Of a stretch of DNA of 43,656 bases, positions 5,668-38,087 are shown in pieces. The stretch comes from Bacteroidota bacterium. Lineage in GTDB: Bacteria > Bacteroidota > Bacteroidia > JAFLBG01. The translations under genes and the position numbers were made by a program. Under the pieces are notes generated by a model. That model saw only the letters and a list, made by a program, of their open reading frames with translations, was not told the origin of the DNA and did not search any database. Each line of letters begins with the position of its first letter. Within the stretch, counting starts at the first letter, position 1. The DNA is taken from the NCBI GenBank assembly GCA_017303975.1, contig JAFLBG010000033.1, positions 1 through 43,656 on the forward strand, written 5' to 3'.

Positions 5668-7422
5668 ATGATTAATCAATATACAATACTTCTTTTCCTT
5701 CACATTGTTATGTGTGTTGGTTTATTCAAAATCTACCAAAAACAACAAATTGCAACCTGGAAGGCATTTGTTCCGTTTTATAATTTTATTCCTTGGCTTC
5801 AGCTTATTCAAAAGCCTTGGTGGTGGGTGTTTTTAATGATTGTGCCTGGGGTGAATTTTTTAATGATTGGCATTATGGCTCTTATGCTTGCAAAAGCGTA
5901 TTCCAATAAAAGTATTTTGAACCAAGCATTAGCACTGCTATTTCCATATTTTTATCTGTGTTATTTAGGTTTTGATGCAAATGCTAAATATGTTGGTCCG
6001 GTTGAAAAATCAAAGTTGCCGAAATCCGCAGTACGAGAATGGGTGGAGGCTTTAGTATTTGCTGTTGTAGCAGCTACTGTTATTCGTACTTTCTTTTTAG
6101 AGGCATTTACAATTCCTACTTCTTCACTCGAAAAGTCGTTAATGGTTGGCGATTATTTATTTGTAAGTAAAATGGCATACGGTGCAAAGGTTCCAAATAC
6201 ACCGTTGGCTTTTCCTTTTGCGCATCACACCTTGCCTCTTACAGAAACTACCAAATCATATTTAGAGTGGATTAAATTACCTTACTTGCGTTTGCCCGGA
6301 TTTGGAAACGTAAAGCGTAATGATTATGTGGTGTTTAATTATCCCGATGGAGATACGGTGGCGCTAGGTGCGCAAAACCAAAGCTATTACCAACTTTGTA
6401 GAGATTTTGGAAGAGCGAATGTTTGGAATCCGCAAAATATTAATCCTGCATCAGGACAACCTTTTGGAGGTATAGTAGCTCGTCCGCCAGATAAGCGTGA
6501 GAACTACGTAAAACGATGTGTGGCAATTGCCGGAGATAAATTTGAAATAAAGCAAGGCGATATTTACATTGATGATAAATTAAGCCCTATGCCCGAAAAG
6601 GCACAGCACCATTACACGGTAAAAACTAAAGGGTTTGTATTTATTGGCGTGCAAGCTAATCTGGATGGCTCGCAAACACCTCGATTCAACTTCCCGTTGT
6701 TGGATAAATTAGATGTGTATGTTACTGAGCTTAGAATTGAGGGAGCTTCGGGAGATACGATAATTTATACAATTAATATGCCTGCAGAAACTGCCGCAAA
6801 AGCAAAACAAATACCCAACGTCATTTCTGTAGAAAAACAAATTGATGCTGCAAATGAATATGCGCCTGAAATTTTTCCGCACAAACCTACTTACAAATGG
6901 AATAACGATAATTTTGGGCCGCTTGTTATTCCTAACAAAGGGCTTACAGTTAAAATCGACACTTCTAATATTTGCTTGTACGATAGATTAATAAAGAACT
7001 ACGAGAATAATGAATTGGAAATTAGAGAAGGTAAAATATACATTAATGGGAAGGAAACCAACAGCTATACATTCCAACTTGATTATTATTTTATGATGGG
7101 AGACAATCGTCATAATTCAGCAGATTCAAGGTATTGGGGGTTGGTGCCCGAAGATCATATTGTAGGGCGACCTGTGTTTATTTGGATGTCGTGGAAAGAT
7201 GCGCAACAAAATCCATTAAGTGGGAAACTAAATGTTGGTAAGCTGTTTTCATCCGAAAGCAAAGCCCGTTGGAGTCGCTTTTTTACATTTGTTAGTAGCG
7301 ATGGTATTTCTCGGTCGTATTTGCTGCATTTTATAGTTATTCTTGTTGGAATAAGAGGGTTTTCGTACATAAGAAAAAGACGCAAGAAAGATTCTAAACC
7401 GAACGCTACAACCAAATCCTAA
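5668..7422 (+). CDS. lepB: Type I signal peptidase with N-terminal membrane extension
   Basis: 584-residue S26A serine protease that removes Sec signal peptides at the outer face of the inner membrane. Residues 1-115 are an extra hydrophobic module resembling DUF5684 (aromatic motifs [10 protein letters not shown] and QKPWWWVF, with further membrane helices). The peptidase begins with the anchor helix at about 125-143, followed by box B with candidate nucleophile S153 in [10 protein letters not shown], and box D with candidate general base K282 in [11 protein letters not shown]. Box E is [15 protein letters not shown] final hydrophobic helix and a basic tail (RKRRKKDSK) close the protein. The residue after the nucleophile is Leu, where Met is usual. 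A second signal peptidase gene lies 75 bases downstream. Confidence 0.92.
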
Positions 7423-7497: not shown

Positions 7498-8571
7498 GTG
7501 GTTAAAAAACTAAGAAGAATAATTACATATAGACAGTGGTTAAAAGCCACCTTCTTTGCATTCCTGGTGGTGCTTGTGTTGCGCACTTTTTTGTTCGAAG
7601 CATATACAATTCCAACTTCTTCAATGGAAAAAACATTGCAAGTTGGAGATTTTATTTTTGTAAATAAATTGAGCTATGGCGCAAGGTTGCCAATAACACC
7701 TTTGTCCATTCCATTTAGTCATCAATATATTCCTCTTTTAGGAATAAGGTCTTATTTGACTTGGATACAAAGTCCCTATTTTCGACTGCCTGGAATAAAT
7801 TCAATAAAGCGAAATGATATTATAGTCTTTAATTATCCGATGGAAACAGGTGTTCCAATTGACCATCGCACGCACTATATAAAACGTTGTATAGCATTGC
7901 CCGGAGATTCTATTGAGATTAACGAGAGCAAGGTTTTTGTAAATGATAGTTTGCTGGAATTGCCTGTTAACGCAGAGTTGAACTATATTATTAAAACGGA
8001 AAAAAAAGGACACTTTAATCCCGATTCATTTGCTATGATGGGAATTACCGATGGAGGTAGAATTTCAGGAAAAGGAGATTATATGTTTTCTCTTACAGAT
8101 AGTGCATTGAGTAGAGTAGCTCGAATGAATAATATAAAAGAAATAAAGCAGTATGTTGATAAACGTGGAGTTGCCAATGATATGGTATTTCCTAACGACA
8201 AAAAGTATTCATGGAACATAGATAACTGGGGGCCAATGAAAGTACCTAAAGCAGGTGATTCAACAATGTTAACACTTGAAAATTTGCCGTTGTTTTATCG
8301 AATTATTGTATTCTATGAAAAGAATGAGTTGGAAATTAAGTACGACTCTATTTATATAAATGGTAATGTGTCTTCGTATTATACGTTTAAAAAGAATTAT
8401 TATTTTATGTTAGGCGATAATCGTCACAGCTCTGCAGATTCAAGGTTTTGGGGATTTGTGCCTGAAGATCATATTGTAGGAAAGGCAGTTTATTTGTTTA
8501 CCTCAGTTGATAAAAGCAAATCTTTTTTTAAGAAGATAAGAAGAGAAAGAACTTTTAAAAGTATAGAATAG
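7498..8571 (+). CDS. lepB: Type I signal peptidase, second tandem copy
   Basis: 357-residue S26A peptidase without the N-terminal membrane module of its neighbour. Basic N-terminus and anchor helix (about 14-31) are followed by nucleophile S42 in IPTSSMEKTLQVGD, general base K129 in HYIKRCIALPGD, and box E GDNRHSSADSRFWG. It has the Met after the nucleophile that the upstream copy lacks. Start is GTG at 7498; the overlapping ATG two bases upstream is in another frame and stops at once. The two peptidases are clearly paralogous, sharing strings such as IVFNYP and DHIVG. Its stop lies one base from the stop of the convergent PolX-like gene, with no terminator between them. Confidence 0.92.
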   Translation: MVKKLRRIITYRQWLKATFFAFLVVLVLRTFLFEAYTIPTSSMEKTLQVGDFIFVNKLSYGARLPITPLSIPFSHQYIPLLGIRSYLTWIQSPYFRLPGINSIKRNDIIVFNYPMETGVPIDHRTHYIKRCIALPGDSIEINESKVFVNDSLLELPVNAELNYIIKTEKKGHFNPDSFAMMGITDGGRISGKGDYMFSLTDSALSRVARMNNIKEIKQYVDKRGVANDMVFPNDKKYSWNIDNWGPMKVPKAGDSTMLTLENLPLFYRIIVFYEKNELEIKYDSIYINGNVSSYYTFKKNYYFMLGDNRHSSADSRFWGFVPEDHIVGKAVYLFTSVDKSKSFFKKIRRERTFKSIE

Positions 8572-26718: not shown

Positions 26719-28941
26719 TTAGCGACTAATAATTAGTTTAGAATATTCAGGACGAGACAACGAATTATTTCTAAAAAAATAAATTCCACAAGAAAAATTA
26801 GATAGGTTTAAATTAACTGTTTCATTACAGTTTATTTTTATTTTTTGTAATGATACCCCTGTTATGGTGAGTAATTCAATTTCAGTGTTACTTGAGCAAA
26901 TTCCAATTTGTTTTATGGTTACTTCGTTTTCAGCAATAGTGGGGTAAACTATAAATGATTTAGTCGGTAAAGCCTTTGAACTCTCTACGGTTGTATTTAC
27001 GCCCCCCATATATAGCGCAACTCCTCCGGTATTTGTGCCTAATAGTAAATCGAGATAGTTGTCGTTGTTTAAGTCATTCAAGAAAGGTGCAGATTTTGGA
27101 CTTTCCCAAATGTCTAAATACATGGAGTCAATTATATTGAAGGTGCCACTTAAATTATTGCTAATGTTGTCATATACATATATGCTTCCGTATTCAGAGC
27201 CCACAAACAGTTTAAACGTATTACTTTGTTTAAAAAGAAAGGGTGTGCTTGACCCTACAATGGTTGTGATAGGCTTATTTACTTTTACATTACCAAAATT
27301 TTGTGATACTAAGGAAAAGGTTGCAACACTTGTACTGCCAATATTTTCGTAATAGTTCAAATTTCCACCTAATTCTCCAATTACCAAATCTAACAAGCCA
27401 TCTTCATTCGCATCAACCAGCTGTGGCGTTGCATTGCTACCTACATCTATACTTTGATAATTAGCCTGACTTAAAACAAACGATGCAGGATTAGAAGCTC
27501 CGGCTGTATTGGTAAATAGATTCAGTTTTCCGGTGCTTTCTCCAATAAGCATGTCTGTATCTCCATCTCCGTCTATATCTCCAAATGTAGGATGGATGCT
27601 TAGAAAATTATAAGCGCCAATAGAAGCATAATCGCGTGTAATTAAGTTGAATTTTGGATTTGTAGCAGTGCCGGTATTTTCATACAATGTTAAGGTAGAT
27701 TGAAAACCCCCACTTTGCTGAAAGTAGCCATAGTTTCCTATTACAAGGTCTTGTAAATTATCTGCATTGTAGTCGAATGTAGCAGGATGTGCATTTTCTC
27801 CGGCATCAATCATTCCATCTTGCAAAAAATTATCTTGGAGGTGGCTAAATGCTGTATTGTTAGATGTGCCTATGTTTTTATAAAGCCAAACACTTTTAAA
27901 ATTTTCTGAAATATTGGGTGCACTAGGTGTTACAATAAGATCGTTTAAATTATCATTGTCAATATCAACACTGTATCCTGTCGGAAATACGGATAAATTT
28001 ACGGCAACGGAGTTGGTAGGAAAGGTTGGTTGTTGCGCTATCATTTTAGCGCCACTGCTAGTTCCTCCATTGGTAAGCATTACAAGGTTTTTAAAAGAAA
28101 TGTCACCAATAATAAGCTCTTTGTCGTTGTCTCCGTCTAAATCTAAGGCAAGTAAAGAAGATCCTGCATGTTGCACTTGTTGTAAAAAATCAGAGGTGGG
28201 GACATAGTTCTTTTCAGGCGCTAAAACATTGAACGAACAGGTGTCATTCAATTGCACATTGTTATTAAAAGGGTTTTCGGAGAAATAACCCCAGCAGTTG
28301 TTTCTAAGCTCAAATGCCAAACTATCGCACGAACCATAAAGTTCTTTTGATAAATTTTTGTGGTATTCTACATAACTTCCTGCCAACTGAAATGTAAGTA
28401 CATCAATGTCTCCATCGCTATCTACATCTACAAGAGCGGGTATATCAACACTACTTACATATAGATTTAGAACGTTGTTAAACTGTTTCGATTTAACTTG
28501 CGATTTTACCAATGAAAACTGCAACCCTGATGATAAGCTAGAAGTGTTTTCATAAACAGCAAATCCGGCAATGGAGTAGGTAAAAATGTCTTCTTTGCCA
28601 TCACAGTTGTAATCTACTAGTAAAGCCCAATCGTGTAACGGAGGGAATTTAGTTTGAAACTGTGGAGCGTGCTTATAATTAGAAACTCCTATGCTGCCAA
28701 TATTGAGGTAGGTTGTAATTCTATTTCCACTTCTATCAAAAATGAATAAATCTTTTTTGCCATCTAAATCCAAATCAATGCTCGAAAATTGAGCGCTGTT
28801 AATACCTCCCGCCCACGCATTTTTTAATATAATAGAGTTTTCTTCCACCTTTATGGTGTCTTGGCGTGTAAAGAAAGGTTGGGCATAAGCCACCTCCACC
28901 CAAAGAAAAAATAAATACAAAAATCGGTTACAATATATCAT
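26719..28941 (-). CDS. Secreted FG-GAP/VCBS-repeat protein with T9SS type A sorting domain
   Basis: 740 residues. After a signal peptide (cleavage near AYA-Q, about residue 20), a beta-propeller-like region carries at least nine Ca-binding loops of DxDxDG type, such as DLDLDGKKDL, DVDSDGDIDVL, DIDGDGDTDMLIG and DLNNDNYLDLLLG. The last 85 or so residues (from about 655, FIVYPTIAENEVTI to YSKLIISR) form a Por-secretion/T9SS type A sorting domain. It is exported to the cell surface or medium by the type IX system. No binding partner is implied by its neighbours. No terminator separates it from the abutting convergent gene. Confidence 0.92.
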   Translation of the reverse strand: MIYCNRFLYLFFLWVEVAYAQPFFTRQDTIKVEENSIILKNAWAGGINSAQFSSIDLDLDGKKDLFIFDRSGNRITTYLNIGSIGVSNYKHAPQFQTKFPPLHDWALLVDYNCDGKEDIFTYSIAGFAVYENTSSLSSGLQFSLVKSQVKSKQFNNVLNLYVSSVDIPALVDVDSDGDIDVLTFQLAGSYVEYHKNLSKELYGSCDSLAFELRNNCWGYFSENPFNNNVQLNDTCSFNVLAPEKNYVPTSDFLQQVQHAGSSLLALDLDGDNDKELIIGDISFKNLVMLTNGGTSSGAKMIAQQPTFPTNSVAVNLSVFPTGYSVDIDNDNLNDLIVTPSAPNISENFKSVWLYKNIGTSNNTAFSHLQDNFLQDGMIDAGENAHPATFDYNADNLQDLVIGNYGYFQQSGGFQSTLTLYENTGTATNPKFNLITRDYASIGAYNFLSIHPTFGDIDGDGDTDMLIGESTGKLNLFTNTAGASNPASFVLSQANYQSIDVGSNATPQLVDANEDGLLDLVIGELGGNLNYYENIGSTSVATFSLVSQNFGNVKVNKPITTIVGSSTPFLFKQSNTFKLFVGSEYGSIYVYDNISNNLSGTFNIIDSMYLDIWESPKSAPFLNDLNNDNYLDLLLGTNTGGVALYMGGVNTTVESSKALPTKSFIVYPTIAENEVTIKQIGICSSNTEIELLTITGVSLQKIKINCNETVNLNLSNFSCGIYFFRNNSLSRPEYSKLIISR

Positions 28942-29061: not shown

Positions 29062-30174
29062 ATGCTGATGACTTCAAAAAAATATTATTGTTTCTTTTTT
29101 TTGTTTTGGATACTAGTGTCTATTGGTTTAGCGCAAACACCATCCAAACATAAGCCATTGTTTATCGAGCAGAAAAATTTAGACCCAAAATCGGTACAAA
29201 AGAATAAAACTCACGAGAAAGAAGTTTCGGCTGTAAAAAGAACATCCGTAAGGTTTGTGGTTTCAGATATTTCTAAGGGTACACCGCTTGATAGTCCGCC
29301 AACTATTGTAGATGAATTATCCGGAGAAAAAATAGAGCCAACTAGATTGAGTGATGGAGAGTATGATATTTTCATTGAGACTAATAAAATATACAAGGTA
29401 GAATGTAAGGTAGAAGGCTACAAACCCTTTGTTAAATCTGTAAACATAAGCAAAGAGGCAAAAGGAGAAGATAATCGGTTTCAACTAGAGCTTACCCCAT
29501 TTACCAAAAAAACATCTGTGAAAATTGTAGTAGTAGATGAAGTAAAAGCGCTACCTATTGATTATATGCCAACCGTTACAGATGAATTGACAGGAAAAAA
29601 AGCAGAAATAAAAAAGTTAGCAGATGGAGAATACGAAGTATATATTGAGAAGGATAAACTGTATAAAGTAGAGTGCAATGCCATTGGATACAAGGCTTTT
29701 GATAAACCTGTAAATATTAGTAAGGAAGTAAAAGGAGAAGACAACAGATTTCAAATTTTACTAACACCACTAAAAGTAGGAGAGAGTTTTATTCTCAAAA
29801 ACATCTATTTTCACCCCAATACACCGGTTTTTAAATCAGAATCAAATAAAGAACTTCAAAATTTGTATAAGTATATGGCTTCAAATCCGGAGGCTGTTAT
29901 TTCTATCGAGGGGCATACAAATTCCAACAGATACATAAAACGAGAAAAACGGAGAGCCGAAATGGGTGGCAAATGGGCTTTTCATGGCACTGCAAAAAAA
30001 TTATCAAAAAAACGTGCATCGGAAGTAAAAGATTTTTTAAATAAAAAAGGAGTAGAGCAAAAGCGTATTAAAACCAAAGGTTGGGGCGGAGATCAGGAAC
30101 TTTACCCTGAACCCAAGAATTTTCAAGAGAGTTTGAAAAACATGCGTGTTGAGGTACACATTTTAAAAATGTAG
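29062..30174 (+). CDS. OmpA-family protein with two tandem PEGA/CarboxypepD-reg-like repeats
   Basis: 370 residues. Signal peptide to about residue 24 (IGLAQ); an ATG two codons in (29068) is an equally good start. Two homologous beta domains at 61-147 and 151-237 are in exact 90-residue register (DGEY, YKVEC, KGEDNRFQ). An OmpA C-terminal domain follows at about 240-370 (ILKNIYFHPNT, IEGHTNSNR, LSKKRASEVKDFL, MRVEVHIL). The usual peptidoglycan-contacting Asp of GHTD is Asn287; the conserved Arg318 remains but is about 15 residues further away than usual. It opens the fimbria-like cluster and probably provides a wall anchor. An imperfect -7 (TAAATTTA) lies just upstream. Confidence 0.86.
   Translation: MLMTSKKYYCFFFLFWILVSIGLAQTPSKHKPLFIEQKNLDPKSVQKNKTHEKEVSAVKRTSVRFVVSDISKGTPLDSPPTIVDELSGEKIEPTRLSDGEYDIFIETNKIYKVECKVEGYKPFVKSVNISKEAKGEDNRFQLELTPFTKKTSVKIVVVDEVKALPIDYMPTVTDELTGKKAEIKKLADGEYEVYIEKDKLYKVECNAIGYKAFDKPVNISKEVKGEDNRFQILLTPLKVGESFILKNIYFHPNTPVFKSESNKELQNLYKYMASNPEAVISIEGHTNSNRYIKREKRRAEMGGKWAFHGTAKKLSKKRASEVKDFLNKKGVEQKRIKTKGWGGDQELYPEPKNFQESLKNMRVEVHILKM
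29242..29502 (+). repeat. First copy of a 270-bp in-frame repeat in the OmpA-family gene
   Basis: Encodes residues 61-147. Shares DELSG/DELTG, DGEYD/DGEYE, YKVEC and KGEDNRFQ with the second copy, in exact 90-residue register with no gaps. Confidence 0.85.
29512..29772 (+). repeat. Second copy of the 270-bp in-frame repeat
   Basis: Encodes residues 151-237. A third, more diverged copy of the same domain is in the next gene, before its OmpA domain (DELTGKEVA, YRVECTAIGYKPFEK). Confidence 0.85.
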
Positions 30175-30184
30175 TTAAAAGGAA

Positions 30185-31756
30185 GTGAAAAGAATTATAC
30201 AGATTTTTATTTTTTTGATGGTGCTTCAAGCTTCTATTTTGTATTGCCAATCCAATAAGAAAAAGTACGAAGGCACCGGCTCAGTATCAGAATTTGTAAT
30301 GCCTTCGCAAGCTAAGGTAATAGGTCATTTCGATTTGTTTTACGAAACTCAAATGCCCAATTTGCCAGACGATAAACGGTCTTTTTGGTATAAAATGGTG
30401 TTTAATAAAGATTGCTTTTTTAAGTTTAATTTGTTTCCTCTTCTTACTACAGACAGATACGATTTTAGGCTATATAAAATTCCCGAAAATTTAAATTTTT
30501 GTTATGCAATAACGGAAAATAAAATAGAATCAATTACAAATGTTAAAGTAAAACGAGAGTTTGCCGATTCGGCTCAATCAAAGGAGTTTAGAGCGGGACT
30601 AGTATATATAAAAGAGGTGCAAGTAAAACGAGGAGATGCAATTTATATTGAGATTGTAAATTTGTGGGGGAGTGATATTGGGCACATTATCGATTTTAAT
30701 ACCTGCGATTATTCATATGTCTTAAAAGCAACAAAAGAAGGAGCTCCTGTAATTAAAGCCGATAGTTCCAAGTTAGAAGCGTTCGATAAAGAGTTGAAAT
30801 CTAATTTAAGTGAAGGAATTGCTAACATCAAAGAAATTTTGTGCCCTGAAAATGGAAAGGTTATTCAATTGTCTTCAATAACCTTTAATCCCAAAGGGGT
30901 AGACATAATACCTAAATACTCATTAAACGGATATGAAAGTCAAACGTTACCCGGAACAAAAGCTATATTACCTGTAAAAACGGGTACTGCATCAATTTCT
31001 TCGGTAAAATTTAATACTCCGCCCAAGTCATCAGTAACTACCGAAACAGTTTCTGTGGCAAAAAAAGATTCTTTATTGTATAAGCCCGTGCGTATAAGGA
31101 GTAAAATTATTGACAGTATAAAAGGAGTTGCTGTTGATGTTGCAATTAAAATAATTGATGAGCTTACAGGTAAAGAAGTTGCCATTGCAAAAACTGGAAA
31201 GCCTGGAGAGTACTTATTCAATGTAGATAATACAAAAAAATACAGAGTAGAATGCACCGCAATTGGCTATAAACCCTTTGAAAAAACAATTGAAATAGCA
31301 GATGTAGTAACGAAAACAAATTCAAATATATTCAATCTGAAATTAGAGCCACTTACTGCCGGGCAAACATTTATTCTTCGAAATATCCAGTTTCATGCAA
31401 ATACATACGTAACAAAGTCGCAATCGAAACATGAGCTGGATAGATTGTATAAATACATGAAGGATAATCCAACTGTAATAATTGAAATTTCCGGACATAC
31501 CAATGGGAACAAAAAAATTGCTCCCGACCCGCTAAAAGCAAAGCTTGGAAAGGAATGGTCTTTTAGTGGAAGTAGCAAAAAACTTTCGTATTTGCGTGCA
31601 CTAGAAATAAAAGAGTACCTTACAAAAAAAGGAATAGACGGTAAAAGAATAAAAGTAGAAGGGTATGGTGGAAACAAACCATTAATACCTGATGCTAATA
31701 CGCAAGAGCAGATGCAAAAAAATATGCGAGTAGAGGTGTTATTGTTAAAAGCATAA
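30185..31756 (+). CDS. OmpA-family protein with N-terminal beta domain, paralogue of the preceding gene
   Basis: 523 residues starting at GTG, 10 bases after the preceding stop. Signal peptide to about residue 21 (ASILYCQ). Residues 25-240 form a domain I do not recognise (FDLFYETQMP, YDFRLYKIPENLNFCY); about 290-385 is a PEGA/CarboxypepD-reg-like domain related to the neighbour's repeats; 390-523 is an OmpA domain (FILRNIQFHANT, ISGHTNGNKK, KKLSYLRALEIKEYL, KNMRVEVLLL). It has the same Asp-to-Asn change and the same insertion length as its neighbour, so these predate the duplication. It is likely a second peptidoglycan-facing component of the cluster. Confidence 0.86.
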   Translation: MKRIIQIFIFLMVLQASILYCQSNKKKYEGTGSVSEFVMPSQAKVIGHFDLFYETQMPNLPDDKRSFWYKMVFNKDCFFKFNLFPLLTTDRYDFRLYKIPENLNFCYAITENKIESITNVKVKREFADSAQSKEFRAGLVYIKEVQVKRGDAIYIEIVNLWGSDIGHIIDFNTCDYSYVLKATKEGAPVIKADSSKLEAFDKELKSNLSEGIANIKEILCPENGKVIQLSSITFNPKGVDIIPKYSLNGYESQTLPGTKAILPVKTGTASISSVKFNTPPKSSVTTETVSVAKKDSLLYKPVRIRSKIIDSIKGVAVDVAIKIIDELTGKEVAIAKTGKPGEYLFNVDNTKKYRVECTAIGYKPFEKTIEIADVVTKTNSNIFNLKLEPLTAGQTFILRNIQFHANTYVTKSQSKHELDRLYKYMKDNPTVIIEISGHTNGNKKIAPDPLKAKLGKEWSFSGSSKKLSYLRALEIKEYLTKKGIDGKRIKVEGYGGNKPLIPDANTQEQMQKNMRVEVLLLKA

Positions 31757-31761: not shown

Positions 31762-31810
31762 CGTATTATTGAGTCTTAATTTTGTTGTGAAAAATCCAAT
31801 TTTATATAAT

Positions 31811-32743
31811 ATGAAAATGATGAATTTTAAAAGAAATCTAATTACTTCACTCTTGATTTGTGTTAGTGTTTTTGTTTTTGCTCAAGGAGCTGCAACTAAT
31901 AGTGCAGCGCAAGACACAACGAAGAAAAAATCTCGTTTTGGTCAATCAGAGAATTCTACACAAAAACCCGATTCTTTAATTACAGATATGGGAGTAGCAG
32001 TTTCTCCATCTTCTTTGCGTTTTAGAGCAAAGCCTGGTTCTACGGAAACTCGTTACGTTACTATAACAAACGACACCAAAAAATCTGAAAAATTTAAAAT
32101 CTCTTTTGCTGATTATGACATGAGTAATAAGGGAGCTGTAACACAAGTTCCATTTGGTAAAAACCACGAGTACGGATTAACGAAGTGGATTAGCGCTACT
32201 CCTAGTTTTGTGGAATTAAGACCTGGGCAAGCACAAAAAATTGCTATAACAATTAACGTTCCTGACGAACCCAATGCCTACAGGTCCGCATGGTGTTTAA
32301 TGATGGTGGATGAAACAACCGAAAAAAAATACATCACCCCTCCAAATGATGGCAAGTCGAATATGGTGATGGGGGTTATTCCGGTATTTGGATTTGGCGT
32401 TTATATTTTTCAGAACCCTCCGAATGTTAAAATAAATAAAGTAGAAATAACCAAATTCTATTTTAATTACGACAAGGAAAATAAATACGTGTACGTAAAT
32501 ACTAGAAATGTAGGTGATGGAATAGGTTTTTGTAAAGCCTATGTAGAGGTTAATAATTTGAATACCGGATACAAGGAGAAATTGTTCTTAAAACAGTTTA
32601 CCATCTTCCCTGGCATGGAAAGAACATTAGATTACCAATTGCCGGGTAACATTGGAAAAGGTAATTATATAGCCACAGCAGTACTTGATTTTGGTAGCGA
32701 TGAAGAAGTGGAAGCTGCAGAGTTAGAATTTAAAATAGAATAA
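31811..32743 (+). CDS. PapD-like two-domain periplasmic chaperone, probable fimbrial-type
   Basis: 310 residues. Start at 31811 gives a good signal peptide (MKMMNFKRNLITSLLICVSV, ending FAQ); an earlier TTG only adds a poor leader. After a low-complexity linker, domain 1 (about 60-205) reads like PapD-type chaperones: AVSPSSLRFRAKPGSTETRY then VTITND on the first strands, FVELRPGQAQKIAITI on strand F1, YRSAWCLMMV on G1, and IPVFGFGVYIF closing the domain. Domain 2 (207-310) is a second Ig-like sandwich with LPGN and YIATAVLDFGSD. It precedes two subunit-like genes and an usher-like barrel gene. I infer a donor-strand chaperone; a general Ig-like secreted protein is the alternative. Confidence 0.66.
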   Translation: MKMMNFKRNLITSLLICVSVFVFAQGAATNSAAQDTTKKKSRFGQSENSTQKPDSLITDMGVAVSPSSLRFRAKPGSTETRYVTITNDTKKSEKFKISFADYDMSNKGAVTQVPFGKNHEYGLTKWISATPSFVELRPGQAQKIAITINVPDEPNAYRSAWCLMMVDETTEKKYITPPNDGKSNMVMGVIPVFGFGVYIFQNPPNVKINKVEITKFYFNYDKENKYVYVNTRNVGDGIGFCKAYVEVNNLNTGYKEKLFLKQFTIFPGMERTLDYQLPGNIGKGNYIATAVLDFGSDEEVEAAELEFKIE

Positions 32744-32902
32744 TTTTAAAATTTTGTAACCTTATTGTATTGTTAGGAGTATAACAACACAAAAAAGGAA
32801 ACATGAATAGTTCTTAAAATAAAAACAGAAAAAAATCCTTAGAAAGTTTTTACTTTCAAAAAAATGTATATATTTACTGAATTCTTAACTAAAAAAAACA
32901 AT

Positions 32903-33754
32903 ATGAGAAATTTTACTAAATCATCTGCTCTTCTTGGTGCACTTGCACTAGCAGGCAGTTCGTTTGCACAATTGCAAGACGAAAAAAACGTAACCATTAC
33001 GATGGATTTACAACCGGTACTTCAATTAAAAATGGAAGGACCTGATCAGTTAGACTTTACTTTTGATGAAATCAGTGAGTATTATGCTGGTATCACAAAG
33101 TACGGAGCAACACAATTAAAAGTGAGTGCATCTGTATCTTGGGATTTATGGGCAGCTGGTTTATCGCAAGGTAACGTAGCGAACTTTTGTTGGGATAACC
33201 AAGTACAGTACCAAGCAGCAACAGGTGGTGTTGATGAAATTCCAATCACAGCATTGGAGCTTCACCAATTCCCTGCAAATCCTGCTATAGCTGCTACTTG
33301 TGCTAACACAATAGCTCAGTCTAGTGATTATAGCCGTCCTTTCCAAATTAGATCCGCGGCTAACGTAGTTTCTAGTAACAACACTATTTATGCACCAAGT
33401 CCTGCTTCTCCGTATTCTTCTCCTACCTCAACAGGGGTTTTGGGTACTTCTGAGAAATATATTGCAGGTGGAACAGGTACTATTGCTAACTGCCAAATAG
33501 CAGGTGGAAGTTATTTACTTAACTCTACAGCAACTTTAGCAGCAGGTAGCTACTACTACGTACTTGATTACAGAATTTTGCCAGGTTTACCGGTGGTATT
33601 CCCTGCGCATGATGATGCAACAACAATCAATACAACTGCAGCTTATGTAACTAACGCAGATGGCGCTACTACATTGATTGACACTGCAACTGACTATGCT
33701 CAGCCTGGTGTTTATACAATGTATGTAAAATACATCTTAACACAAGACCAATAG
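32903..33754 (+). CDS. Probable major fimbrial-type subunit, secreted beta-sandwich protein
   Basis: 283 residues; the ATG at 32903 is chosen because it directly precedes a clean signal peptide (cleavage after SSFAQ). The mature N-terminus QDEKNVTITMDLQPVLQLKM is an alternating strand like the donor strand of CFA/I-type pilins. It has a central Ser/Thr/Ala-rich region and ends PGVYTMYVKYILTQDQ, a terminal alternating strand with a penultimate-type Tyr as in chaperone-usher subunits. It is related to the next gene at both ends (LDFTFDEISEYYAGIT; LDYRILPGLP). The strong terminator just after it suggests a separately terminated, abundant product. The role is inferred from context. Confidence 0.62.
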   Translation: MRNFTKSSALLGALALAGSSFAQLQDEKNVTITMDLQPVLQLKMEGPDQLDFTFDEISEYYAGITKYGATQLKVSASVSWDLWAAGLSQGNVANFCWDNQVQYQAATGGVDEIPITALELHQFPANPAIAATCANTIAQSSDYSRPFQIRSAANVVSSNNTIYAPSPASPYSSPTSTGVLGTSEKYIAGGTGTIANCQIAGGSYLLNSTATLAAGSYYYVLDYRILPGLPVVFPAHDDATTINTTAAYVTNADGATTLIDTATDYAQPGVYTMYVKYILTQDQ

Positions 33755-33768
33755 GTATTAAAAATATT

Positions 33769-33804
33769 AAAAAAAGGGGTTGATTTTTCAACCCCTTTTT
33801 TTTT
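33769..33804 (+). terminator. Terminator between the two subunit-like genes
   Basis: GGGGTTGA pairs with TCAACCCC around a TTTT loop, preceded by an A run and followed by nine T. It begins 14 bases after the first subunit stop. In chaperone-usher operons such an intra-operon hairpin keeps the major subunit in excess. Confidence 0.92.
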
Positions 33805-33846: not shown

Positions 33847-33854
33847 TATATTTG
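33847..33854 (+). promoter_or_regulatory. -7 element giving a possibly leaderless transcript for the second subunit
   Basis: TATATTTG is an exact TAnnTTTG match ending 6 bases before the ATG at 33861. With the usual distance to the start of transcription, the mRNA would begin at or next to the start codon. It would drive the second subunit and the barrel gene after the terminator. Confidence 0.45.
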
Positions 33855-33860
33855 TTACTA

Positions 33861-34508
33861 ATGATAAAGACGTACACAACCTTTTTTCTATTTGTTTGTT
33901 TTGTCTTCAAAATGTTCGCACAGCCTGCTTGTGTGGTTTCTCCTACAAGTTTTTGCAATCCTGTTGGAGGGGGCTCTGTTTACCTCATGTCCACTTCATC
34001 AAATGTAGATTTAACATTCGATTCTTTTGGTAAATTTGTTGGAGGTATAACTCAAAGTGGAGGAACTGTTCTAAAGTTAGCAATAACAGAAGCTGCAGCT
34101 CCCTGTAGATGGCAATTGCACGCAAATGTTGATAATGGAGGTGGGTTAACACCTGTAACAGAATGGGAGCTTATTACTCCTTATGGGGCTGCTGGACCAC
34201 CGCACCCTACCGTTGATTTATTAGATATGCGAATTCGTAACCAATGTAATACATCTCTTTCCGGAACTTCATTTGTTGATATTCCTAACATCAATCAAAC
34301 TATTGATATTGTTGAGAACCCTGGTGCGGATGTTTTGCCCGGAGCCGGTACATGTGCACTTAATCAAAATGTAAATACAGAAGGTACATACTTAACAGAT
34401 TATGGTCAGTATGCATTTACGGTAGATTACCGAGTATTACCAACATTAACCCTAAGGCCTGGTATTTATCAATTAACAGTACGGTATTGCTTAACAGAAG
34501 ATAACTAG
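33861..34508 (+). CDS. Probable minor fimbrial-type subunit, secreted beta-sandwich protein
   Basis: 215 residues with a signal peptide to about residue 20 (FKMFAQ). It is homologous to the preceding subunit gene: VDLTFDSFGKFVGGIT and the end VDYRVLPTLTLRPGIYQLTV followed by RYCLTEDN parallel that protein, but it lacks a 37-residue insertion present there near the C-terminus. Six Cys (24, 32, 82, 129, 165, 210) could form disulfides, unlike its neighbour. The next gene's GTG start follows its TAG with no gap, so the two are translationally coupled. An adaptor or tip subunit for the barrel protein fits this pairing. Confidence 0.6.
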   Translation: MIKTYTTFFLFVCFVFKMFAQPACVVSPTSFCNPVGGGSVYLMSTSSNVDLTFDSFGKFVGGITQSGGTVLKLAITEAAAPCRWQLHANVDNGGGLTPVTEWELITPYGAAGPPHPTVDLLDMRIRNQCNTSLSGTSFVDIPNINQTIDIVENPGADVLPGAGTCALNQNVNTEGTYLTDYGQYAFTVDYRVLPTLTLRPGIYQLTVRYCLTEDN

Positions 34509-37500
34509 GTGAAATTTTATTTCGTAAAAATAATCCCCCTTTGTTTTTTACTTGCTGTTTTTTCGGCATTGGGTTTGCATGCCCAACAACCTGTTACAAC
34601 ACCAACAGATAGTACCTCACAGCCAATTTCTTCAACTGCACCTACAACTGTTGATACAGCTGCAAAGCCAGCTCCTCCAAAGTTAAGAGGCAGTATGTTA
34701 AGAGGTCTGAAGCCAATTCCTGATACCATAAAAAAAATATTTGCTCGCTTTGATACACTTTCTATGAGTATTAGAGAGGGTGAAATTATTTCGAAAACCA
34801 TGAGAGTGGATAATAGAACCTCTAAAACCTTAGATTTTAGTGTAGATATCTCTTATCCCGCAGGATGGAAAACATTAAACAATAGAAAAAAACTATATAC
34901 TGTTTTGCCAGGAGATAGTTTGTTTGTTCCTGTTAGAATAATCCCCCACGGAAAGATTAGAGGAAATACGAAATATTTAATTAACGCATACATTCTTGAA
35001 AAGGATAGCACACCTGTAGCTACAGGTTATTTTTACACCTCTAGAGAGCGTGTTAGTTCATGGGATATATCTGTACTACCAACTGAAAAAATTTATTTTA
35101 AAAACAAAGACAATAGTTCGCACTTTAAGTTAAGTGTTATGAATACTGGTAATGAAGACCAAGAGCTATTGTTAGATATGGAGAATATCAGACAAGAGAT
35201 AATGATTACCGATACTACAGATAGAGTAATAAAAAAATCGATACACGATTTTAAGTTGAAACCCAATCAAGATACCATATTTGCATATAACGTAAAATAC
35301 ACTTCCGGACTTAGAAATTACAAAATCATAGATTCGGAAAATTACAGACCCAATAGCTCCAGCGAACAAAAAGTATATACCATATTTGCAAAAACGAGCG
35401 AACCTAAAATTAGAGGAGGTAGAGCATTAACAAAAGCAAAAAAAATAGACTTTGTAAAGTTGGGCGATAACCTAAAAGCAAATCAATATGGGTATTCTGT
35501 CTTCCCTATTATTATGGATGCCAATCTTACCAACATTTTAGGCGGCCAACCAATACTCAACTTAAATTTTAGAGGTAATTCAGTTTTGGAAAACGGAGCC
35601 TATCTAACCTATTTTTCTCAGTTTTTCTTTTCTAATTATTATTATACCAATCAATATTTAACATCAAGTTTTCATTATGTAGGTTATTTTAAAGAAAATT
35701 ATTTTTTTGAATTGGGAGATGTTGGAGGAGTTGGAGGTGGTGCATATTCTGTGCCAGGAAGAGGGATGACAGCTGGGTATAGGTTTCTACCACAACATAA
35801 AATAGCAGGTTTTTATACTAGAAGTCCTCGTTTTTTTGCCCCAACAAATAGAGACGGTTTTGGGTTGGTTTATTCATTTTTACCAACTTTCGGAAATTAT
35901 AATGTTGGTTATTCTAGAGCAAATAATAGTGCTACAAAATTGGTTTCTAATTACTTTAGTTTGAATGGTTCTTATAAAATTGCATCAAGACATTCTGTAA
36001 ATGCAGGCGGTGTTTTTGTAAATCATAAATCGTCTCAAACAGGAAATATTTTTACAAGATCAGGATTTCAGCTTTTTGGTGGCTATACAGGGTCTTACTT
36101 TGGTGATAGAAGAATGCGATCTAGTATTTCCGGTAGTTATATTTCTAAATTTTTTGACCCATATAATGGTGGTGATATGTTAATAGTAAACCATACAAGT
36201 AGCTATGCTCATAAAAAAGTTTGGAATTTTCAGTTGACAAATAACTATAATAACAGGAAATACATTTCTCTTTTAAATACTTCCAATCCCTATCAGCAAG
36301 TTAGACAGGAGAATATGATTAATGCGACACGAAGATTTGATTCAAGATTTGTTGGACTAGGAGCTTTTTATAATTTTTCAAGGTTCGATGCTTTTAGATT
36401 TCATACACGTGGTATTAATCTTAATGTTGGTAATTATGATTATGAAACGAATACGCTTGTTAGTTCGAATGCAATGGCTGGCTATACTCGTTCTATAGAC
36501 GAAAAGCCTACTCCGAAAGATTATTTTTTCTTTCAATTTTTTACATTAATGCGCTATAGAGTGTTAAGCGCAAATTTCAGATATACTTACGGAAATTTAA
36601 CTCCATATCAAAATGCATTGTTAAACGGCAGCATGTATCCACAAACAATAGCAGCTTCAGTTAATTATCAGTACCAGTTTAAAAATCCTCATTTGGTGCT
36701 TCAAAATTATATTAACTATACGTTCTTCAATACATTCAAACGACATAGTTTTGGATACACACCCGACTTGTTTTATTTTACAGATAATGGATGGCGATTT
36801 AGAGTAACTGCCGGTTTCTTTATTAGCAGCTCCAATGCATCTAGTGAGAGACAGTCGCTGAACTCTACAATTTCTGAGGGATACAAGGAATCTAAGAATC
36901 TTATAACGAAAAGTGTGCTATTGAATTTTGGTGTGCGCAAGGAGTTTGGTGTTCCAATTCCTTTTTCTAAGCGCAAGTTTTATTCAACTGATTTTGTCGC
37001 CTTTATTGATTTGAATGGAAATGGTAAAAAAGAAGTTGGCGAATATAACTTAGAAAATATTGTTTTAAAATTAGATAAATGGGAGGTTTTGACTAACGAG
37101 AAAGGAAAAGCCACTATAAAAAACGTTCCAACCGGTAATTACAAACTTAGTGCATTTTCGTTAGAGGAGTTAGAAGGCTATTTTCCAAATATAGAAGAAG
37201 AACTGGATGTTATAATAGATAGAGTAGGAGATAAGCATGTGCCTATACCATTTGTAAAGGGTATAAAGATATATGGTAAAGTGGTGCTAGATAGAGAAAA
37301 GGTTAGTGAGAATACAGATGTTACACCTATTGATTTAACTGGCATTAAGATAAGTGCCATGAATGGAAAAGTAATTCATACACTTACCGGAAAAGACGGA
37401 GAGTTTAATTTTTATGTTCCTTTCGGGAAATATACATTAAATATGGATGAAAATGTGTTAAGCGATAGATGGAAGATTTTGCAAAATAATATTGAGTTGG

Positions 37501-38087
37501 AATTAGACAAGAATACCGAGAGTTTGTTTATTACATTTTATATTGTAGAAAAGCGAAGAAAAATTAATAAAAAAACATTTGGTGCAGATGGCAAGCAAAT
37601 AGGCGATTCGTTGCTAACTGCCAAAAATGCTGCTGATAATGGTAAAGGAGGGAAAGGTGCAAAAGGAACTAAGGGTGGTAAAGGTGCGAAAAACGGTAAA
37701 GCAGGAGCTGATAAAAATGCCGCAGCCAATGCTACTAAAGGCGGGAAACAAAATGTTGACTACGATGTAATAAAAGACGCATTCTTGAAAGATTTACAAG
37801 ATGCAACTAAACTAAAAGGATTGGTTTATACCATTCAAATAGGTGCTTTCCAAAAGCCATTAAGTCCTGCTACATTTAAGGATTTAAAAGGATTGATGTA
37901 CGAACGTATTGACAATAATTTTGTGAGAATTTCCGGTGGTCAGTTTATCAGTGAATCTTCTGCTACAATTGAGCGAGATAACTTGATTCGTGTAGGCTTT
38001 GTAGATGCCTTTGTTTCTGCATACTACAATGGTAAAGTAATTAGTCTTCAAGAAGCTTCTCAGATTAAGAAAACACTTGTTAAGTGA
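34509..38087 (+). CDS. Usher-like outer-membrane barrel protein with Ig-like, SdrD-B-like and SPOR domains
   Basis: 1192 residues, GTG start immediately after the previous stop. Signal peptide 1-25 (HAQQ), Pro/Thr linker to about 60, two Ig-like domains (about 75-180, 185-300), then about 315-815 in short amphipathic strands rich in Tyr, Phe, Asn and Gly (LGDVGGVGGGAYSVPGRG), the size of a fimbrial usher barrel. Next come an SdrD-B-like domain (825-890, FIDLNGNGKKEVGEYNLE, VPTGNYKLSAF), a second such domain (915-1015), a Gly/Lys-rich linker (1040-1082) and a SPOR domain (1104-1177, YTIQIGAFQKPL). SPOR domains bind denuded peptidoglycan. No named family is recognised for the whole; an usher role is inferred from barrel size, flanking domains and gene order. 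Confidence 0.6.
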   Translation: MKFYFVKIIPLCFLLAVFSALGLHAQQPVTTPTDSTSQPISSTAPTTVDTAAKPAPPKLRGSMLRGLKPIPDTIKKIFARFDTLSMSIREGEIISKTMRVDNRTSKTLDFSVDISYPAGWKTLNNRKKLYTVLPGDSLFVPVRIIPHGKIRGNTKYLINAYILEKDSTPVATGYFYTSRERVSSWDISVLPTEKIYFKNKDNSSHFKLSVMNTGNEDQELLLDMENIRQEIMITDTTDRVIKKSIHDFKLKPNQDTIFAYNVKYTSGLRNYKIIDSENYRPNSSSEQKVYTIFAKTSEPKIRGGRALTKAKKIDFVKLGDNLKANQYGYSVFPIIMDANLTNILGGQPILNLNFRGNSVLENGAYLTYFSQFFFSNYYYTNQYLTSSFHYVGYFKENYFFELGDVGGVGGGAYSVPGRGMTAGYRFLPQHKIAGFYTRSPRFFAPTNRDGFGLVYSFLPTFGNYNVGYSRANNSATKLVSNYFSLNGSYKIASRHSVNAGGVFVNHKSSQTGNIFTRSGFQLFGGYTGSYFGDRRMRSSISGSYISKFFDPYNGGDMLIVNHTSSYAHKKVWNFQLTNNYNNRKYISLLNTSNPYQQVRQENMINATRRFDSRFVGLGAFYNFSRFDAFRFHTRGINLNVGNYDYETNTLVSSNAMAGYTRSIDEKPTPKDYFFFQFFTLMRYRVLSANFRYTYGNLTPYQNALLNGSMYPQTIAASVNYQYQFKNPHLVLQNYINYTFFNTFKRHSFGYTPDLFYFTDNGWRFRVTAGFFISSSNASSERQSLNSTISEGYKESKNLITKSVLLNFGVRKEFGVPIPFSKRKFYSTDFVAFIDLNGNGKKEVGEYNLENIVLKLDKWEVLTNEKGKATIKNVPTGNYKLSAFSLEELEGYFPNIEEELDVIIDRVGDKHVPIPFVKGIKIYGKVVLDREKVSENTDVTPIDLTGIKISAMNGKVIHTLTGKDGEFNFYVPFGKYTLNMDENVLSDRWKILQNNIELELDKNTESLFITFYIVEKRRKINKKTFGADGKQIGDSLLTAKNAADNGKGGKGAKGTKGGKGAKNGKAGADKNAAANATKGGKQNVDYDVIKDAFLKDLQDATKLKGLVYTIQIGAFQKPLSPATFKDLKGLMYERIDNNFVRISGGQFISESSATIERDNLIRVGFVDAFVSAYYNGKVISLQEASQIKKTLVK

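Follow-up and report, generated by a model that had tools for sequence, protein, structure and literature searches.

The question raised by this locus is what a predicted outer-membrane barrel protein that ends in a SPOR-type domain is for, and with which neighbors it works. The locus lies on contig JAFLBG010000033.1 of assembly GCA_017303975.1, from a Bacteroidota bacterium (Bacteroidia; JAFLBG01); positions 1-43,656 of the forward strand were analyzed, and this whole stretch of 43,656 nucleotides is called the window below. The barrel protein probably serves a pilus system of Bacteroidota that resembles the chaperone-usher type, acting there as the assembly platform in the outer membrane. 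It is likely the outer-membrane gate of a previously unassigned pilus-building gene set, widespread in water-dwelling members of the phylum, whose main subunit is related to a filament observed by electron microscopy and named TLP-1. A sequence-only reading of the same DNA had concentrated on the barrel protein and overlooked its operon context, which is the larger finding here. On one strand of the window follow two OmpA-domain proteins, a chaperone-like protein, two pilin-like subunits (pil1 and pil2) and the barrel protein:

29062-30174, + strand: first of two OmpA-domain proteins, with a carboxypeptidase-regulatory-like domain, likely a peptidoglycan-binding accessory (PF00691, E 6.5e-14)
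30185-31756, + strand: second OmpA-domain protein (PF00691, E 6.1e-12)
31769-32743, + strand: periplasmic chaperone-like protein with two immunoglobulin (Ig)-like domains (AlphaFold2, VIA-align, WxLIP_PGBD)
32864-33754, + strand: pil1, major pilin-like subunit, homologue of TLP-1/TLP-2, with the donor-strand-like N-terminus NVTITMDLQPVLQL (phmmer, motif)
33769-33802, + strand: terminator-like hairpin after pil1, a 15-pair stem followed by a T-run (hairpin scan)
33852-34508, + strand: pil2, pilin-like, lacking the N-terminal strand and proposed as the tip (homology to pil1 in relatives, motif, fusions)
34509-38087, + strand: barrel protein, predicted usher-like outer-membrane assembly platform (open reading frame, AlphaFold2 model, Foldseek, VIA-align)

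The barrel protein and its gene neighborhood

The open reading frame (ORF) of the barrel protein coincides exactly with 34509-38087, starts with GTG directly at the stop codon of pil2 and encodes 1192 amino acids. Its structure was predicted with AlphaFold2 from a 68-sequence alignment (A5), which included one misassigned row, L124 15738-18527, a second ORF of that locus called barrel by profile that by Pfam is a PD40/TPR/SPOR protein. The model is multi-domain and fairly confident, with a mean predicted local distance difference test (pLDDT) score of 80.7 and a predicted template-modeling score (pTM) of 0.59. After a signal peptide come two beta-sandwich domains, a 26-strand barrel, two C-terminal domains, a linker and the SPOR tail:

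34737-35399, + strand: N-terminal domains, two beta-sandwiches, residues 77-297 (AlphaFold2 model)
35499-36956, + strand: predicted transmembrane barrel with 26 long strands, residues 331-816 (AlphaFold2 model)
36978-37550, + strand: two prealbumin-like C-terminal domains, residues 824-1014 (SpaA over cut-off; FimD alignments reach residue 1013)
37608-37775, + strand: Lys/Gly-rich disordered linker, residues 1034-1089 (pLDDT <50; sequence)
37821-38042, + strand: SPOR-type domain, residues 1105-1178 (family profiles; beta-alpha-beta-beta-alpha-beta fold in the model)

The layout proposed by the sequence-only reading is borne out. It had placed a barrel at about residues 315-815, where structure prediction now counts 26 strands at 331-816, followed by two domains, a linker and a SPOR-type end. 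Of the families considered for the post-barrel region, SdrD_B, the reading's choice, stays below its Pfam cut-off (18.4 vs 29.7 bits), and the prealbumin-like SpaA fold exceeds its own (26.1 vs 23.1 bits). The suggestion of an usher-type barrel fused to a SPOR-type domain gained support from structure comparison and from the adjoining chaperone and two pilin-like genes. In a Foldseek search of the PDB with the barrel model, ranks 1-8 were all FimD/PapC ushers (E 2.1e-12 to 7.6e-10), with low TM-scores of 0.24-0.26 of the query. By VIA-align, FimD (9fxs_D) matches with Z 15.0 over residues 329-1013, that is, the barrel and both C-terminal domains, and among the VIA-align matches listed only ushers extend past the barrel through both of these domains to residue 1013. 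As in an usher, the predicted protein has two C-terminal beta domains after its barrel, placed by the model at about 824-928 and 947-1014 and covered by the FimD alignments to residue 1013. Similarity of the barrel alone is generic, because porins and siderophore receptors reach Z 13-16 against the same model. What supports the usher reading is the barrel taken together with the two C-terminal domains and the operon.

The gene set is conserved well beyond the window. A search with pil1, restricted to one genome per species, gave 100 confirmed loci, of which the best 80 were analyzed (numbered with L below). All 80 come from entries titled Bacteroidota or subgroups of it, except for one Chlorobiota metagenome-assembled genome, and the cultured carriers among them include Flavicella marina, F. 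sediminum, Wenyingzhuangia heitensis and W. aestuarii. A chaperone-like gene is present in 76 of the 80 loci and a barrel gene, or a piece of one, in 73; in the seven loci that lack it the sequence ends soon after the pilins. The order chaperone-pil1-pil2-barrel is found 52 times, pil1-pil2-barrel-chaperone seven times and chaperone-pil1-fused pilin-barrel five times, the remainder being variants and pieces. In L038-L040, L056, L057 and L060 the chaperone gene is preceded by relatives of the second OmpA-domain protein.

At a threshold of 1e-20, 59 of the 395 genomes sampled from the class have a match to the barrel profile, 11 of them only through the SPOR part, leaving 48 genomes with the barrel core (43 long and 5 partial matches, own genome included) by our reading of the match rows. 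The pil1 profile matches two of 395 genomes of the phylum, one being the genome of the window itself. A strictly TLP-1-like pil1 is therefore rare in an evenly drawn sample of the phylum, and the barrel core is commoner in the class sample. More distant relatives of the gene set (L048-L051) have barrels with 21-22% identity to that of the window, and the window pilins hardly reach their pilin genes; in L048 and L049 the pilins were assigned by position and alignment only.

Pilin-like subunits and pond-water filaments

The protein start of pil1 is likely the ATG at 32903. A phmmer search of the PDB with pil1 finds TLP-1 (9ikj, E 5.2e-38) and TLP-2 (9ikk, E 9.0e-38), each entry containing 16 chains. 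The alignment pairs pil1 residues 38-293 with chain residues 3-234/235, which is nearly the whole chain including its N-terminal strand. With residue 38 opposite chain residue 3, chain residue 1 falls at pil1 residue 36, about where the mature protein is expected to start. A profile built from 25 pil1 and pil2 members also finds TLP-1/TLP-2 (E 1.6e-37). We take 9ikj and 9ikk, in which TLP stands for Tsinghua Lotus Pond, to be the pond-water fibrils of the CryoSeek work. The CryoSeek paper of Wang et al. in PNAS (2024) is said to name TLP-1a and TLP-1b. The available part of a 2026 perspective (PMC12967142) describes the pond-water filaments of Wang et al. as not conclusively identified. Judged from these sequence matches, filaments of exactly the pond type are likely the product of the gene set.

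In relatives of the window, pil2 is homologous to pil1, and the two differ at the N-terminus. A donor-strand-like motif around NVTITMDLQPILQL, just after the signal peptide, is present in all 79 complete pil1 proteins and in none of 71 pil2 proteins, by a pattern that was drawn up after inspecting the pilin sequences. At seven loci the second pilin is a fusion of 441-461 amino acids whose N-terminal half matches pil2 (E 1.2e-18 to 1.2e-9) and whose C-terminal half matches pil1 (E 2.7e-60 to 7.5e-45); a donor-like strand lies where the halves meet. We propose, by analogy, that pil2 is the tip subunit, because chaperone-usher pili have at their tip the subunit with no strand to donate, and because in the fusions the pil1 strand comes straight after a pil2 domain.

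W-x-L-like motifs raised the thought that pil1 and pil2 are WxL domains, which we do not claim, as the genome has no WxL match and none is among the Pfam matches of the 25 pilins. Two further observations concern copy number. The main pilin is duplicated in L064, with two tandem pil1 copies, and another contig of the window's own genome (L132:5753-6592, + strand, contig C50) carries a second pil1-like gene (E 1.5e-100 to the pil1 profile), which stands alone, its neighbors being unrelated, and may encode an alternative main pilin.

A terminator-like hairpin after pil1

The hairpin after pil1 is probably an attenuator. By our own definition, a hairpin occurs in 33 of 68 gaps between pil1 and pil2, in 7 of 8 between pil1 and pil1 and in both gaps between pil1 and a chaperone gene. 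It is absent from all 66 chaperone-pil1 gaps, which are longer (median 127.5 nucleotides), and from all 68 pil2-barrel gaps (median 5.5 nucleotides). As a control, mononucleotide shuffles of the pil1-pil2 gaps gave a hairpin in 5 of 1360 cases. This pattern fits a main subunit made in excess of the tip and the platform. A promoter scan was uninformative, with 35 sites vs 38.9 expected by shuffling.

The SPOR-type tail

The sequence-only reading had staked its SPOR call on a direct profile search of the window protein, and the window's C-terminal domain alone has no Pfam match to SPOR (PF05036) up to E 1. The call nevertheless holds at the family level, through profiles of relatives and the predicted fold. 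Among 23 aligned C-terminal domains of the barrel family, 16 match PF05036 at E <=1 (best 7.5e-7), and the 23 combined into one profile match the SPOR domains of CwlC (1x60, E 1.4e-5) and, at E 0.26, of DamX (2lfv). Domains similar to the window tail in the same genome exceed the SPOR cut-off. The assignment for the window thus comes from relatives and a predicted fold. Large proteins of about 1600-2600 amino acids, such as L133:1-3150, occur in many genomes of the class and carry the SPOR-like domains closest to the window tail, often in several copies.

The tail is carried by 19 of 67 full-length barrels, that of the window included, and is lacking in the other 48. It was scored as a barrel length of at least 1100 residues, and all 19 fall within the C-terminal-domain alignment. 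The barrel tree was built from these 67 proteins, leaving out L117 as a near-copy of L116 and the misassigned L124 ORF, and it demands at least five gains or losses of the tail. For these reasons the tail is considered an accessory; it is real and SPOR-related, and most lineages can do without it.

SPOR domains bind glycan strands that lack stem peptides and often localize to septa. It is conceivable, if on the unlikely side, that the tail directs assembly to division or remodeling sites instead of serving as a general wall tether, as this known preference for denuded glycan and frequent septal localization would suggest. Against septal targeting stand the restriction of the tail to 19 of 67 barrels with at least five gains or losses, and the two OmpA-domain proteins of the same operon, which would already act as plain tethers. 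Since these two proteins share the operon, general wall anchoring is at least as likely as septal placement, and tethering of the platform to peptidoglycan in some lineages is most likely the role of the tail. The sequence-only reading knew of no described usher with such an end, and among the titles and abstract beginnings screened we likewise found no paper on a SPOR-usher fusion, preprints and most subscription journals lying outside the search.

Departures from known ushers and chaperones

Several observations weigh against the assembly-platform assignment. The usher family (PF00577) has no match at E <=1 in 15 barrel members. The top VIA-align match of the barrel model, above every usher, is the MtrB barrel (6r2q_B; Z 20.2, residues 327-813, 434 residues at 4.8 A). 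Ushers have a 24-strand barrel vs 26 strands here at 331-816, a count from a prediction and not from a solved structure. There is no plug domain: the window model has no inter-strand stretch longer than 20 residues, and relatives have no barrel insert of more than 10 residues, the 28 residues in one row belonging to the misassigned L124 ORF. Ushers recruit chaperone-subunit pairs through an N-terminal domain; in the whole-protein alignments here the usher matches begin at residues 325-333, so that the N-terminal domains (77-297) lie outside them, and the pTM of the whole-chain model is only 0.59. PapD-type chaperones have an Arg8/Lys112 anchor pair, which was not seen here; no column in the A1/G1 strand region of 76 chaperone sequences, with positions set by eye, is at least 60% basic. 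By our hairpin criteria 35 of the 68 pil1-pil2 gaps have no hairpin. Finally, four of the 80 loci have no chaperone gene, and two of these (L061 and L108) have more than 2.5 kb of sequence upstream of pil1. The plug is one of five usher domains according to the part of PMC3960871 that was available.

In sequence searches the barrel protein finds nothing beyond chance in the PDB, the barrel profile finds only the SPOR domain of CwlC, and the best PF00577 score in the own genome is 11.4 bits, at another protein and below the cut-off of 27.1. No usher-family match at E <=1e-5 was obtained in 296 sampled genomes of the phylum, with E. coli as the positive control, and hence no known usher competes for the role in this phylum. 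We also considered the N-terminal domains of the barrel protein as a copy of the chaperone; hhalign gives the first domains a marginal match (probability 38.6, E 3.2e-4) and the rest a lower one, and we do not claim it.

These points could also be accommodated if the barrel had a different origin, such as an MtrB-like one with 26 strands, and as a pore or anchor did no more than hold the base of a filament that exits by another route, for instance type IX or lipoprotein-type assembly. The MtrB match at Z 20.2, the 26 strands, the missing plug and the missing usher-family match speak for such an origin. It is nonetheless improbable, given that the top eight Foldseek matches are ushers, that only ushers among the listed matches align to residue 1013, and that the chaperone linkage, the pattern of tip and rod subunits and the gene order are those of fimbrial operons. 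The assembly platform remains the preferred reading. On this reading the system works like a chaperone-usher pathway yet lies outside the usher family, and it is not to be filed as a member.

The chaperone-like protein and WxLIP

The chaperone ORF starts with TTG, and the protein probably starts at the ATG at 31811-31820, ahead of the signal peptide. Its AlphaFold2 model (pLDDT 85.1) has as its best structural match the Enterococcus faecium WxLIP (Foldseek E 9.3e-13; VIA-align Z 15.6, 231 residues, root mean square deviation 7.3). Next by VIA-align come the pilus chaperones CfaA (Z 13.7, 199 residues, 5.4 A), CupB2 (Z 13.7, 177 residues, 4.2 A), YadV (Z 13.2) and FimC (Z 12.9). Because unrelated proteins with a single Ig domain also score Z 12-13, across roughly 100 residues, what counts in the chaperone match is its two-domain span. 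The likeness to PapD-like two-domain chaperones is one of predicted fold only, in a gene that lies within the operon. The WxLIP_PGBD family (PF06030) gives the window protein 24.3 bits vs a cut-off of 27.3, and 12 of 12 family members match it at E <=1 (best 2.1e-6). Matches of the chaperone profile to synaptotagmin C2 domains (E down to 2.7e-5) were set aside as chance or generic beta-sandwich similarity, since the fold comparisons pointed to WxLIP and pilus chaperones.

In Gram-positive WxL clusters, according to the available part of PMC10599100, a small and a large WxL protein are likewise paired with WxLIP, and a beta-hairpin is predicted to insert into WxL. Least probable of all is that the genes encode a diderm surface complex of this WxL/WxLIP type, with the Ig-like partner as a lasting anchor and pil1 and pil2 forming short wall-associated complexes instead of pili: WxLIP is the best structural match of the chaperone (Z 15.6), WxLIP_PGBD matches 12 of 12 members and the pairing of partners is similar, but TLP-1, the homologue of pil1, was deposited as a 16-chain assembly, the own genome has no match to the WxL domain (PF13731) at E <=10, with a positive Lactococcus lactis control, and the partner has no C-terminal membrane helix, a feature present in WxLIP in the same partial source. 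The chaperone model ends in a strand (315-323), and its sole long helix (14-35) is the signal peptide.

Other genes at and near these loci

In L061 and L108 an ORF of 812 or 865 amino acids upstream of pil1 occupies the position of the chaperone. In 10 of the 80 loci (L070, L076, L085, L099, L101, L102, L105, L116, L117 and L129) the barrel gene is directly followed by a gene for a protein with FKBP-type prolyl isomerase domains, perhaps a folding helper; Pfam gives four such domains each in L070, L105 and L116, and the others were assigned by phmmer. Adjoining the operon in the window, 26719-28941 (- strand) encodes an FG-GAP repeat protein whose match to a type IX secretion tail (25 bits) is below the cut-off of 27. 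Two adjacent genes at 5668-7422 and 7498-8571 resemble type I signal peptidases by eye only.

Discussion

The model proposed here starts from what was computed: the gene set and its order, the homology of pil1 to TLP-1, predicted folds, the N-terminal strand pattern, the pil2-pil1 fusions, the hairpins and the SPOR relationship. In this model pil1, pil2 and the chaperone would be exported by Sec, and the two-domain chaperone would hold each incomplete Ig-like subunit. Without an N-terminal strand, pil2 would be threaded first and become the tip, after which each pil1 would insert its N-terminal strand into the groove of the preceding subunit, and a filament of the TLP-1 type would be built through the barrel. 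A leaky terminator after pil1 would keep the major subunit in excess. In the lineage of the window, the flexible linker and the SPOR domain at the barrel's periplasmic end, together with the two OmpA-type proteins, may tie the platform to peptidoglycan. We lean toward a more specific proposal, in which the gene set is the assembly machine of the pond-water TLP filaments and represents an independent or very early branch of the chaperone-usher type in Bacteroidota. Its chaperone would be closest in fold to WxLIP, its 26-strand platform would have no plug, and some lineages would have a tether to peptidoglycan built in.

To our knowledge, no chaperone-usher pathway is known in Bacteroidota. Among the titles and abstract beginnings screened there was no paper describing one; preprints and most subscription journals were outside the search, and an earlier description is possible. 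Ushers are left out of the survey in PMC4793230, as far as its available part goes. If the proposal is true, the gene set would give Bacteroidota a pathway of the chaperone-usher type, the barrel occurring in about 48 of the 395 class genomes sampled. Filaments that, in the available part of the perspective (PMC12967142), could not be conclusively identified would gain both a producer and a route of assembly. Because cultured strains carry the gene set, it is directly testable. Through the structural likeness of WxLIP to pilus chaperones, surface assemblies of Gram-positive and diderm bacteria would be connected, and with its SPOR tail the assembly platform would be unusual in being attached to the wall.

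The closest parallels are with chaperone-usher pili (FimCDH, PapCDG and CfaA-type). Shared with these are a two-Ig-domain periplasmic chaperone, a barrel followed by two C-terminal domains, a conserved N-terminal strand on the subunits, one subunit without that strand, a hairpin after the main pilin gene and a compact operon. The window system differs in having no usher-family match, 26 predicted strands instead of 24, no plug insertion, an N-terminus of two beta-sandwiches and no visible Arg8/Lys112 pair, and in the SPOR tail and OmpA neighbors of this lineage. To Gram-positive WxL/WxLIP clusters it is similar in the chaperone, which is structurally nearest to WxLIP, and in small and large partner proteins; it departs from them in the partner without a membrane helix, the missing WxL match and the presence of an outer-membrane platform. 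The family of the window tail resembles the SPOR domains of CwlC and DamX, with a match to CwlC at E 1.4e-5 and an agreeing predicted fold, whereas the window copy is singly below Pfam detection and forms the end of a barrel protein, not of a protein of division or sporulation. With TLP-1/TLP-2 (9ikj, 9ikk) the likeness is homology of pil1 along nearly the whole chain. Those entries hold the subunit only, and the gene set, the proposed chaperone, the tip and the platform come from the present analysis.

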